A stretch of DNA of 64,000 bases from an uncultured Pelagibacteraceae bacterium (lineage in GTDB: Bacteria > Pseudomonadota > Alphaproteobacteria > Pelagibacterales > Pelagibacteraceae). Positions 23,644 through 27,785 of this stretch are shown in pieces (position 1 is the first letter of the stretch; every line of letters starts with the position of its first letter). The translations under genes and the position numbers were made by a program. The stretch spans positions 1-64,000 of the forward strand of contig CACGPY010000003.1 in assembly GCA_902575095.1 (NCBI GenBank). The letters run 5' to 3'. The notes beneath the pieces are model-generated. The model was not told the DNA's origin and searched no databases. It saw only the letters and a list, made by a program, of their open reading frames with translations.

Positions 23644-24714
23644 TTAAAAACATACTAAATGGTCAATATAAATCGGAGACTGAACGCCGAATTTTTCATT
23701 CTCCTCATGCTGATGGATATGATGAGAATGTACAAAAACAGGCAAATGTTCACCGTTTTTAGTTTTTAAAGTATATATAAAATTTGTTCCTCTAAACTTT
23801 CTATCCACTACCTCTAATTTTAATTTGCTTTGATCATCATGAATTAAATCTTCAGGTTGTAACAACAATCTGGCTTTAGATCCTGAAGGAAACTTATTTG
23901 ATAATTTACCCCTGATTTCACCTAGCTCTGCATGTTTTAACTTATGCACTGCACACTCACTATCAATTATTTCAACATCAATAAAAACACCTTTATTAAG
24001 AAAATTCGCAACCTCAATTGAATTTGGTTCGTGATGTACATTATACGGTACATCATATTGTTTTAATTTTTGATTAAGAATTATCCCACATTTGTCAGCC
24101 ATTGAGAAAGCTTCGTAAGAGTCATGCGTGACAATAATAGTTGTTAAATTAATTCTTTTTAAAAGTTTTTTTACTGACACTTGTATCTCATCTTTTAAAC
24201 TTTGATCAATATTTGAAAATGGTTCATCCAATAAAAGTAAATCCGGTTTTGAAAGAAGAGATCTAGCCAAAGATACTCTTTGGGCCTCACCAGCACTTAT
24301 TTGATGAGGAAACTTTTTTAAAATCGGTTCTATGTGTAATATGTTTATAATTTCTGAGGCATCTAAAAATGAACTATTTCCGTTCAATCTTTTTTTTCCA
24401 AAATTAATATTATCTATTACACTATAATTTGGAAATAAAGAATTATCCTGAAAAGATAGAGCTATATTTCTATCTTCTGGTTCAATGTGTATACTAGGAG
24501 ATGATAAGGTTTTTCCTTTTAAATTAATAAGTCCTTTTGAAAGTTTTTGTAATCCAGCAATAGTTCTTAAAATAGTTGTTTTTCCAATTCCAGAAGGTCC
24601 TAGTAGTGAGATTATTTCTCCTTGTTTTTTAATTATTAAGTTTACATCATTTACTTTATTTTTTTCACTGGCAGTAAAGTTGCCGTTTTGAATTTCAAAA
24701 AAATTCTCTGACAT
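23644..24714 (-). CDS. fbpC: Fe(III) ABC transporter ATP-binding protein
   Basis: LLGPSGIGKTTILRTIAGL; ISAGEAQRVSLARSLLSKPDLLLLDEPFSNID; adjacent to Fe-type permease. Confidence 0.88.
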   Translation of the reverse strand: MSENFFEIQNGNFTASEKNKVNDVNLIIKKQGEIISLLGPSGIGKTTILRTIAGLQKLSKGLINLKGKTLSSPSIHIEPEDRNIALSFQDNSLFPNYSVIDNINFGKKRLNGNSSFLDASEIINILHIEPILKKFPHQISAGEAQRVSLARSLLSKPDLLLLDEPFSNIDQSLKDEIQVSVKKLLKRINLTTIIVTHDSYEAFSMADKCGIILNQKLKQYDVPYNVHHEPNSIEVANFLNKGVFIDVEIIDSECAVHKLKHAELGEIRGKLSNKFPSGSKARLLLQPEDLIHDDQSKLKLEVVDRKFRGTNFIYTLKTKNGEHLPVFVHSHHIHQHEENEKFGVQSPIYIDHLVCF

Positions 24715-24726
24715 TTAAAGATTATA

Positions 24727-26343
24727 TTAGTTTTTTTTAGAAAGTATATATTTAGATGAGAGTAGTATTAATATTGTGGACCAGAATATAAGGAAGAGGG
24801 ACGGTAAAGCAGCTGCCTCAAGTAAATCTTGGGATGCATAAATATACGCCTGTGTAGCAAATGTTTCAAAATTAAAAGGCCTTAATATTAAAGTAATCGG
24901 CAATTCTTTTATCACTTCTAATGAAATAAGAAGCATTATTAAAATAATATTTGTTTTTAAATAAGGTATATGAATTTTTAAAAAAGTTTTAATTTTTGAA
25001 TATCCAAGAAGATAAGCGCTTTCATCAATTGAATTATTAATTTTTTCGTAACTTGATTTAATTCCATTAAAAGAAAGTGAGAAAAATCTAATAAAGTAAG
25101 CTAAAATTAATCCTAAGATTGATCCAATAAAAATACTTTTGGTGCTTTTTAAACTAAAATTATCAGAGATAAAATCGCTTAGGTTTGAAAAAAATGTAAT
25201 GAAAGCAACAGCGAGAATAACACCTGGTATTGCGTATCCAGAAATTGAAAAGTTTGTTAGATAAGTCAAAATTTTACTTTTTGAGATCCGGCTTCCATAA
25301 TTAATGAAAAGAGAAATAATAATAATTGATATGCTAGCCAACAACACTAAAATTAAAGTGTTAATATTAATATTAATTATATTTATATCCTGTAAGTATT
25401 TAGGAAATTTTACTGTCCAATAAATCATTTGAGTTACTGGAAATAAAAAACTTAAAAATAAAATTAATGAACAGACAATAAATGGTAAAAAGGCCTTTTT
25501 ACCATTTAATTTGATTTTAGTAATAGGCTTAAACCCCCTACCAGGTTGATGATATTTTGCTTCTTTTCTTGAATAAATTTCTATTGAAAATAAAAAGAGA
25601 ATAAATAATAGCAATATAAAAGATATCTGATTTGCAGTATTTAAATCATCAAAAGACAACCAAGAGTTATAAATTCCTGTTGTTAAAGTATTAATACTGA
25701 AAAAAGATACTGTTCCAAAATCAGATAAACACTCCATCGATACTAAAGCGAGACCAGCAATTATGGCCGGTCTAGCAGAAGGTAAAATTATTTTAAAAAA
25801 AGTTTCTTTAGAGCTTAGACCTAAATTCTTTCCAACTTCAATATAATTATTAGACTGAAAATGAAAAGAAGCTCTAGTTAAAACATATACATATGGAAAA
25901 AGTGAAAAAGAGATTGCTAAAATTGCCCCTACAATTCCGTCAATTTTAGGAATAATTAAGTTATAATTATTTTCCCCAAAAAAGTAAGTTAATATTGAAA
26001 ATGCAGTCCCGTAGTTTTCAAAAAATGCAATTATCGAAAAAGCATAAATATATCCTGGTACTGCAAATGCTAATATCAAAGCCCAACTAAGAAAATTAGA
26101 AAAAGGGAAAATGTAAAATGAAACAAAATATGCTGAAAGAACTCCTAAAACAAAAGTGATTATAATCACAAAAAATAATATTATTATTGAATTAAAAATA
26201 TAGTCATACAGAAATGTCTCTTTTAAAACTGTGTAATAATTACTTGTTTCGTTAAAAAAACTGAAAAAAACTGTTATTATTGGTAATGCAACGATTAGTG
26301 CTATTAATACGGAGCTAAAAAACCAAATATTATACTTTGTCAT
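24727..26343 (-). CDS. fbpB: Fe(III) ABC transporter permease (fused two-domain FbpB/SfuB type)
   Basis: 538 aa, two permease modules with EAA loops (EVGKNLGLSSKETFFKIILPSARPAI; ESAYLLGYSKIKTFLKIHIPYLKTNI). Confidence 0.9.
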   Translation of the reverse strand: MTKYNIWFFSSVLIALIVALPIITVFFSFFNETSNYYTVLKETFLYDYIFNSIIILFFVIIITFVLGVLSAYFVSFYIFPFSNFLSWALILAFAVPGYIYAFSIIAFFENYGTAFSILTYFFGENNYNLIIPKIDGIVGAILAISFSLFPYVYVLTRASFHFQSNNYIEVGKNLGLSSKETFFKIILPSARPAIIAGLALVSMECLSDFGTVSFFSINTLTTGIYNSWLSFDDLNTANQISFILLLFILFLFSIEIYSRKEAKYHQPGRGFKPITKIKLNGKKAFLPFIVCSLILFLSFLFPVTQMIYWTVKFPKYLQDINIINININTLILVLLASISIIIISLFINYGSRISKSKILTYLTNFSISGYAIPGVILAVAFITFFSNLSDFISDNFSLKSTKSIFIGSILGLILAYFIRFFSLSFNGIKSSYEKINNSIDESAYLLGYSKIKTFLKIHIPYLKTNIILIMLLISLEVIKELPITLILRPFNFETFATQAYIYASQDLLEAAALPSLFLIFWSTILILLSSKYILSKKN

Positions 26344-26368
26344 GATTTGCTTTTACTATCATAATTAA

Positions 26369-26423
26369 TTCCCTGGCTAAAGTGGCTTGAGTGTAGAATT
26401 CAGCTAGCATTTAAACCAGGGAA
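26369..26423 (-). ncRNA. Intercistronic structured element (8-bp closing stem, 39-nt interior) in the fbpB leader
   Basis: ttccctgg (26369-26376) / ccagggaa (26416-26423); lies in the 95-nt gap between the small ORF 26439..26609 and fbpB. Identity not recognised. Confidence 0.45.
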
Positions 26424-26438
26424 ATTGACGTCAAACTT

Positions 26439-26609
26439 TTAATTTTTTTTAAACATAGAAGAAACAATTTCTTTTACTTCCTCAATTTTAATTTCAGAGA
26501 CTTTTCTATTTGAAATTTTTTTATCCATTTTTTTAGCTTCTGACATACAAGGCGAACAACCCGTCTTTAACTTGTTTAAGTTAATACTATTTTTGTTTGT
26601 TCGCCTCAT
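26439..26609 (-). CDS. Small 56-aa CxxC protein in iron operon (not in ORF track)
   Basis: Translation MRRTNKNSINLNKLKTGCSPCMSEAKKMDKKISNRKVSEIKIEEVKEIVSSMFKKN; starts 16 nt after the SBP stop. Confidence 0.6.
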   Translation of the reverse strand: MRRTNKNSINLNKLKTGCSPCMSEAKKMDKKISNRKVSEIKIEEVKEIVSSMFKKN

Positions 26610-26625
26610 ATTAATTAATTAACAA

Positions 26626-27645
26626 CTACTTCCAACCTGCTTCTGTCATTACTTCTAAAGCGTCTGCTTGTCTTTTTCCGTAATTTACAACTTTTGTTTT
26701 TAGATCTTGTTTGAAATCTAATCCCATGTTTACAACAAGTGGATGTGGAGACACACCTTTTATCATTGGATACTCAAAAGTATTATTTACAATATGATTT
26801 TGAGCTTCTTCGCTTAATAAAAACTCAACTAACTTTATTGCATTAGCTTTATTCGGTGCTCCTTTTACAAGTCCTGCACCACTTATATTCATATGAGTTC
26901 CTCTTCCATCTTGATTAGGAAAAAAAGGTTTTACTTTTTTAGCAGCTGCTTGCTGTTCTGGTCCTTTTTTTCCAGAAAGCATAAGTGCCAAGTAGTAAGT
27001 ATTAGCTACAGCAATATCAGCTTCTCCTGCGGCAACAGCAAGTATTTGCGCTCTGTCGTTGCCTTTAGGAGATCTAGCCATATTAGCTACCATTCCTTTA
27101 GACCATTCTGCAACTTTGCCTTTTCCATTATTTTTGATTAATGAAGCTACAAGTGATTGGTTGTAGATATTATTAGAAGCTCTTATCACCAATCTACCTT
27201 TCCATTTTGGATCAGCTAAACTTTCATAAGTTAAACCTGCTAATTCTGAACCGCTAACTCTTTCTGGTGCAAAATATACAATTCTTGCTCTCTTCGCTAT
27301 TCCAGTCCACTTTGATGTTCTAAAGTTGGTTGGAACAGCTGATTTAATAGCTTTACTTGTAAGTCCGCCTTGAAGGTTAGACTCAAAGGCTCCTAGTCTT
27401 CCAGCATCTGCAGTTATGTAAAGATCTGCTTTACTATCTGCTCCTTCTTCAATTATTCTTTTTTCAAGTGCACCAGATTTTCCTGAAACAACATTTACAT
27501 TTATTCCTGTTTTTGCAGTAAATTTTTCATAAAGTTGAACATCAGAGTCATAATGCCTTGCGCTAAATATGTTTACTTCATTTGCAAACAAGCTCCCGGT
27601 GAATGCATATAATAACATATAAGTAAGTATCGTTATTTTTCTCAT
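26626..27645 (-). CDS. fbpA: Fe(III) ABC transporter periplasmic binding protein
   Basis: Likely start MRKITILTYMLLYAFTGSLFANEVNIFSARHYDSD; NTYYLALM near C-terminal half (Tyr-Fe ligand-type motif). Confidence 0.93.
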   Translation of the reverse strand: MRKITILTYMLLYAFTGSLFANEVNIFSARHYDSDVQLYEKFTAKTGINVNVVSGKSGALEKRIIEEGADSKADLYITADAGRLGAFESNLQGGLTSKAIKSAVPTNFRTSKWTGIAKRARIVYFAPERVSGSELAGLTYESLADPKWKGRLVIRASNNIYNQSLVASLIKNNGKGKVAEWSKGMVANMARSPKGNDRAQILAVAAGEADIAVANTYYLALMLSGKKGPEQQAAAKKVKPFFPNQDGRGTHMNISGAGLVKGAPNKANAIKLVEFLLSEEAQNHIVNNTFEYPMIKGVSPHPLVVNMGLDFKQDLKTKVVNYGKRQADALEVMTEAGWK

Positions 27646-27663
27646 AAATTTCCGTCGCTTATT

Positions 27664-27680
27664 GATAATGATTATCATTT
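27664..27680 (-). promoter_or_regulatory. Fur box 1 upstream of fbpA
   Basis: Reverse strand AAATGATAATCATTATC, 16/17 match to the corresponding part of the classical GATAATGATAATCATTATC consensus. Confidence 0.82.
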
Positions 27681-27690
27681 ACAACAAAAT

Positions 27691-27707
27691 GAGAATGATT
27701 ATCATTT
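27691..27707 (-). promoter_or_regulatory. Fur box 2 upstream of fbpA
   Basis: Reverse strand AAATGATAATCATTCTC, 15/17 match to the same consensus portion. Confidence 0.75.
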
Positions 27708-27785
27708 GCAATAATGACGCACCTTTTTTAGATAAAAAAAACACGTATTAGTTGCTAGCTAAATAAAAATAGAGTTAAATTAAGT

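Follow-up and report, generated by a model that had tools for sequence, protein, structure and literature searches.

The iron-uptake operon and its intercistronic gap

In the analyzed window, a 64,000-nt stretch of DNA from an uncultured bacterium of the Pelagibacteraceae (SAR11, abundant in the ocean), the gap in front of the permease gene of an iron-uptake operon contains a perfect 8-bp inverted repeat, which raises the question of whether it encodes a structured RNA and what such an RNA might do for the neighboring genes. The operon occupies the reverse strand in the order fbpA, a small CxxC ORF, the gap, permease and ATPase. The fbpA/sfuC-type Fe(III)-binding protein gene (26626–27678) was assigned by phmmer similarity to FutA/FbpA-type proteins (E-values down to 1.8e-91) and by Pfam SBP families, and the PDB relatives of its product include iron-transport proteins (E 1.2e-90). 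It is followed by the fbpB/sfuB-type permease gene (24727–26343; Pfam BPD_transp_1) and the fbpC/sfuA-type ATPase gene (23644–24714; Pfam ABC_tran above the cut-off and TOBE_2 slightly under it). Two tandem palindromes (TGATAATGATTATCATTT, 27663–27714, without strand assignment) at the 5' end of fbpA form a 25-nt direct repeat with 88% identity and are taken to be Fur-box-like. They overlap the first ATG annotated for this gene. The true start is probably an ATG downstream of 27678, giving MRKITILTYMLLYAFTGSLFA, a signal peptide.

The CxxC ORF (P0001, 56 aa, 26439–26609, reverse strand) has no Pfam family. Its identities at the three codon positions (0.88/0.90/0.67) and a homologue in another genus (55% identity over 42 aa) argue that it encodes a real, conserved small protein. 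Members of this family, 54–57 aa long and likewise without a Pfam match, are conserved between fbpA and fbpB in the SAR11 genera g1, g3 and g4. A second hairpin, H1 (26545–26611, reverse strand, z-score -5.7), is located directly 3' of fbpA and covers the start codon of the CxxC ORF. Nine of its pairs have double changes among 70 homologues (0 of 500 shuffles), a strong covariation despite its position in coding sequence, and the g3 ORFs possess similar arms of other sequence (e.g., GCGCGC/GCGCGC).

The 95-nt gap (26344–26438) exactly fills the interval bounded by the start of the permease gene (26343) and the stop of the small ORF (26439). The sequence-only reading had placed in it, upstream of fbpB, a perfect 8-bp stem of the arms ttccctgg (26369–26376) and ccagggaa (26416–26423) around a 39-nt interior (26377–26415). 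These coordinates are exact, although the conserved unit reaches beyond the stem: on the operon strand, an invariant UUUGACGUCAA(U) is followed by a bulged hairpin. The unpaired 5' motif UUUGACGUCAAU (26424–26435, reverse strand), invariant by identity over 39 homologues, begins 3 nt past the small-ORF stop codon. The hairpin (26369–26423, reverse strand), delineated by covariation, folding and identity, consists of the closing stem UUCCCUGG/CCAGGGAA, an inner core AAAUGC..GCU / AGCC(G)CUUUA and a variable apical loop, and the permease start codon (26341–26343) is located 25 nt 3' of it. The consensus of the 39 homologues reads UUUGACGUCAAU, a short spacer and YCUCUGGY-UU-AAAUGC-NN-GCU-loop-AGCC-GC-UUUA-RCCAGAGR. 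Within 26424–26435, UGACGUCAA matches what we take to be a conserved 9-mer of 16S rRNA, probably by coincidence.

Covariation and conservation of the element

Folded as a single sequence on the operon strand, the element is only mildly more stable than chance (the z-score is -2.6 over the 55 nt of the element and -2.0 over 111 nt), and the decisive evidence is comparative. A DNA search of 151 genomes of the same genus found the region conserved in dozens of them, and the fbpA–fbpB gaps extracted from these genomes yielded an alignment of 39 distinct homologues. Standard pairs make up 97.9% of the paired cells in this alignment, compared with 26–58% when the structure is slid by one to three columns. 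Five pairs are changed on both sides (18 double-changed cells), a level reached in none of 500 shuffles. Two further basal pairs, hidden by the gap placement of MAFFT, also changed on both sides (UA to CG in five sequences and UA to AU in eight), which brings the total to seven stem pairs. Read on the operon strand, G-U pairs outnumber A-C combinations 22 to 9, indicating that the operon transcript is the selected molecule.

Conservation is unevenly distributed along the element. The mean pairwise identity of the UUUGACGUCAAU motif is 0.967; the unpaired 5' flank and inner core together show 0.96–0.97, whereas the apical loop (0.59) and the 3' flank (0.52) drift. The motif and core are thus more conserved than the first and second codon positions of either the CxxC ORF (0.88/0.90) or fbpB (0.69/0.81). 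Together with the covariation, this argues that the gap holds a genuine structured RNA under selection, biased to the transcribed strand. The sequence-only reading had proposed a structured RNA in this iron operon that would fall if homologous SAR11 gaps lacked conservation or compensatory substitutions; the homologues displayed both.

The same data bear on two readings that deny such an RNA. The first, a chance hairpin or the inert remnant of a repeat, would suit the modest single-sequence z-score and the repeated loss of the element described below, but conservation above that of coding positions, seven covarying pairs and a single strong copy per genome leave it close to negligible, and by our reading covariation and conservation already appear to refute it. 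The second, a DNA-level site, makes the palindrome TTGACGTCAA the target of a dimeric transcription factor within the operon or a part of an internal promoter. As DNA, TTGACGTCAA is indeed perfectly palindromic, and TTGACG is similar to a -35 hexamer; however, the compensated stem and the one-strand G-U excess indicate RNA, no other exact copy exists in the genome, and the spacing to any -10-like hexamer changes from one hairpin to another. We rejected the internal promoter because of this variable -35/-10 spacing, and regard the DNA-site reading as a whole as very improbable.

Distribution and novelty

At gathering score, Rfam 15 identified nothing in the window except tRNAs elsewhere, and at E<=10 only implausible eukaryotic and viral matches appeared. 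The sequence-only reading had recognized no known riboswitch, and no Rfam family explains the element away. A previous survey of SAR11 structured RNAs reported rpsB, rpsL, ffh and methionine-associated motifs and four weaker ones (Meyer et al. 2009, PMC2704228). The present element is not among the motifs in the text of that survey; it resembles them as a cis RNA in a SAR11 gap found by comparison and covariation, but none of them was described from the sfu gap that separates binding protein from permease (PMC2704228). The literature that we searched contained no prior description of the motif or of hairpin replacement between sister genera. As a general kind, regulatory hairpins between the genes of ABC operons are known.

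A covariance model detected the element in 56 of 169 genomes of the same genus, with one strong copy in each. Exactly one match was found in 55 of the 56, the second match in G091 being weak (25.5 bits), and the genome of the window (0.94 Mb) has one copy; the element is thus not a multi-copy repeat of the REP/PU palindrome type. The model did not find the element in other genera of the family, and its weak matches in g4 were dismissed as chance: those that were hit repeatedly (L132, L135 and L137) seem to represent a single dnaA-like coding site that is conserved, and the others are unrelated to one another. A two-part sequence pattern, searched over a collection of 84,980 species, retrieved 44 Pelagibacteraceae/Pelagibacterales records and five unrelated ones. 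The latter, in other phyla (L146, L151, L154, L155 and L187), were discarded, since about 3.4 such matches are expected by chance and the covariance model matched none of them. The viral contigs searched did not contain the element. The named records that carry it are Pelagibacteraceae single-cell genomes and MAGs.

The element is missing from about two thirds of the genomes of the genus, many of which are incomplete. G161 retains a degraded copy, and L050 shows an apparent clean deletion between AACTTT repeats. On the fbpA tree, where inner support is mostly weak and recombination is likely, the element turns up in deep as well as shallow branches, switching between presence and absence about 22 times, a pattern that we read as an element ancestral to the genus and repeatedly lost or exchanged.

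Anchoring to the end of the CxxC ORF

Across the genomes examined, only 0–3 nt separate the CxxC stop codon from the invariant motif, and L069 even takes its UGA stop from the motif. A few ORFs, among them L017 and L023, have a disrupted frame towards the end. Between the element and fbpB the spacing ranges over 9–29 nt, and seven genomes have a flavodoxin gene in between (Pfam Flavodoxin_1; E 1.7e-25 in the single case that was tested). Because of this close spacing to the ORF stop, the variable distance to fbpB and the intervening gene, the element appears to be anchored to the ORF and to belong to the junction between the ORF end and the next gene rather than to fbpB alone. The original description as an fbpB leader thus holds for the location upstream of fbpB, but the anchor is the CxxC stop codon, and the next gene is either fbpB or flavodoxin. 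Flavodoxin insertions between the CxxC ORF and fbpB were seen at L016, L019, L027, L031, L033, L035, L037 and L054, with the element present in all but L054; such insertions are consistent with an iron-starvation operon. In element-less genomes, the ORF stop usually overlaps the fbpB start or lies within about 20 nt of it, which is a coupled arrangement.

The same gap in other SAR11 genera

In other Pelagibacteraceae genera, the gap often holds strong hairpins of unrelated sequence, as would be expected if a hairpin function, and not one ancestral sequence, were selected at this position. Pairing of the apical loop with the ribosome-binding site of fbpB is possible in g2, g8 and part of g4, for example CUCCUCC with GGAGGAG, UCCUCUAA with UUAGAGGA and UAUUACCC with GGGUAAUA. 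In a shuffled-loop test, 5 of 32 sequence clusters reached p<0.05 (1.6 expected), and eight have at least seven consecutive Watson-Crick pairs; within g2, the loop and ribosome-binding site vary too little for a formal covariation test. These data are suggestive, without being proof, of a pseudoknot that would sequester the fbpB Shine-Dalgarno sequence in the sister genera. Loops complementary to the fbpB ribosome-binding site were noted at L227, L231, L235, L238–L247, L273, L293 and L315–L325. Translational off-switch pseudoknots of the preQ1/SAM-II type rely on pairing between a loop and the Shine-Dalgarno sequence. The gap hairpins of these other genera resemble them in this respect; unlike in that type, the pairing implies no ligand here and is not seen in the genus of the window.

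Four genomes of g2 (L251–L254) possess a g1-like fbpA with 89–93% identity to that of the window, compared with about 73% for the others, which points to an exchange of the operon between genera. Three of the four have a further hairpin (GATTGTG/CACAATC type) before fbpB.

Within the genus of the window, the shuffled-loop test revealed no conserved pairing between the loop and the ribosome-binding site. One subclade (L041, L043, L046, L064 and L073) carries AGAGG or a similar sequence in the 3' arm, 9–14 nt before the AUG, which is a possible Shine-Dalgarno sequence. We also considered and rejected a pseudoknot joining the loop of the hairpin to the 5' motif: on inspection of the 39-homologue alignment, the loop UCAA of one subclade is not conserved in the others.

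Candidate mechanisms

The element, its structure, strand and position and its conservation across the genus being established, we favor, at about an even chance, a cis-acting intercistronic RNA that separates fbpA and the small ORF from fbpBC by protecting the upstream mRNA, by insulating translation of the permease, or both. The covariation, the strand bias, the position at the ORF stop, the coupled ORF/fbpB arrangement of element-less genomes and the unrelated hairpins of the other genera, in several lineages with a loop complementary to the fbpB Shine-Dalgarno sequence, lead us to this preference. The element would lie within one iron-repressed fbpA-orf-fbpB-fbpC transcript. With the foot of the stem about 13–19 nt past the ORF stop, a terminating ribosome could reach the foot without melting the stem. 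The hairpin would then mark the 3' border of a stabilized fbpA-orf segment, while ribosomes leaving the ORF would be kept from running into the permease gene, and the binding protein would be produced in excess over the permease and ATPase; some factor may recognize the invariant UUUGACGUCAAU.

This arrangement has known parallels. Where the segments of an E. coli ABC operon decay at different rates, it is invariably the binding-protein gene that is stabilized (PMC5927463). Like the intercistronic hairpins of E. coli malE-malF and Rhodobacter puf, the element follows the binding-protein segment and precedes the channel genes, and an excess of binding protein is the expectation that it shares with the malE-malF type (PMC5927463). 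A stable hairpin is indeed found between the binding-protein and channel genes, with the small ORF between fbpA and the hairpin. It differs from the malE-malF and puf hairpins by its invariant unpaired 5' flank and core, the extra small ORF, a single copy per genome and the tie to a stop codon. In the SAR11 strain HTCC1062, iron limitation raised the mRNA of sfuC 16-fold, of sfuB 10-fold and of sfuA 5-fold, and only SfuC clearly rose in both mRNA and protein (PMC2864753).

Several findings speak against the intercistronic reading. A plain stabilizing hairpin needs neither the invariant 11–12-nt unpaired flank nor the near-invariant core, which point to a specific binder; it is for this reason that we leave some weight to a sensing RNA, a processed sRNA and a DNA site. 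The absence from about two thirds of the genus and the frequent changes of state mean that the element is dispensable or often exchanged, and the genus of the window also lacks a conserved pairing of loop and ribosome-binding site.

A conserved non-helical core, as is typical of riboswitches, is present in the flank and core, and UUUGACGUCAAU with the inner core could form the binding site for a metal, an iron-sulphur related metabolite or an RNA-binding protein (e.g., CspE/CspL) that alters expression of the downstream gene. Every member is located in an iron-uptake operon, before fbpB or flavodoxin, and cold-shock RNA-binding proteins track iron in HTCC1062 (PMC2864753). Yet the element is confined to one locus in one genus, unlike most riboswitch classes, and resembles no Rfam family even at E<=10; the window has no terminator, most members have no Shine-Dalgarno sequence inside the stem, and the possible one near the AUG is limited to a single subclade. 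A ligand- or protein-sensing RNA is thus doubtful in our estimate. Attenuation by a terminator, raised in the sequence-only reading, finds no support in the window, where no U tract follows the hairpin as an intrinsic terminator would have it; U-rich 3' flanks occur in only a few relatives (e.g., L064).

The missing U tract, in the window and in most members, also weighs against a processed sRNA released from the gap with UUUGACGUCAAU as its seed. SroC and MalH originate in the same way inside the binding-protein/permease operons gltIJKL and malEFG (PMC9438474), and an invariant unpaired 5' segment followed by a hairpin would suit such a molecule. However, an exact TTTGACGTCAA occurs nowhere in the genome but in the element, and sites with one mismatch (14/13) are not in excess over the reversed-pattern control (14/15), which argues against a regulon of full-length complementary targets. 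Unlike SroC and MalH, the element therefore has neither a terminator U tract nor target enrichment, and the free RNA is putative. The absence of further exact copies and of any excess of near-exact ones weakens both the sRNA and the DNA-site readings, and we consider the former improbable.

Implications for iron acquisition in SAR11

Iron can limit growth in the habitat of SAR11. Under iron stress in HTCC1062, the sufA-E transcripts rose without a rise in the proteins, which the authors ascribed to post-transcriptional control (PMC2864753). The intercistronic element that we favor probably sets the permease output relative to the iron-binding protein. A more far-reaching proposal, which we regard as unlikely, is a new class of RNA regulators of iron uptake, in which a protein or ligand that depends on the iron state would recognize UUUGACGUCAAU and the inner core; the element would then rank among several independently evolved RNA devices, including the loop/ribosome-binding-site pseudoknots of the sister genera, that control the Fe(III) permease at a single gap. 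The element adds a new family to RNA catalogues, and an RNA element in a Fe(III)-uptake operon, with different hairpins in sister genera, provides a testable candidate for a post-transcriptional layer of the iron response.
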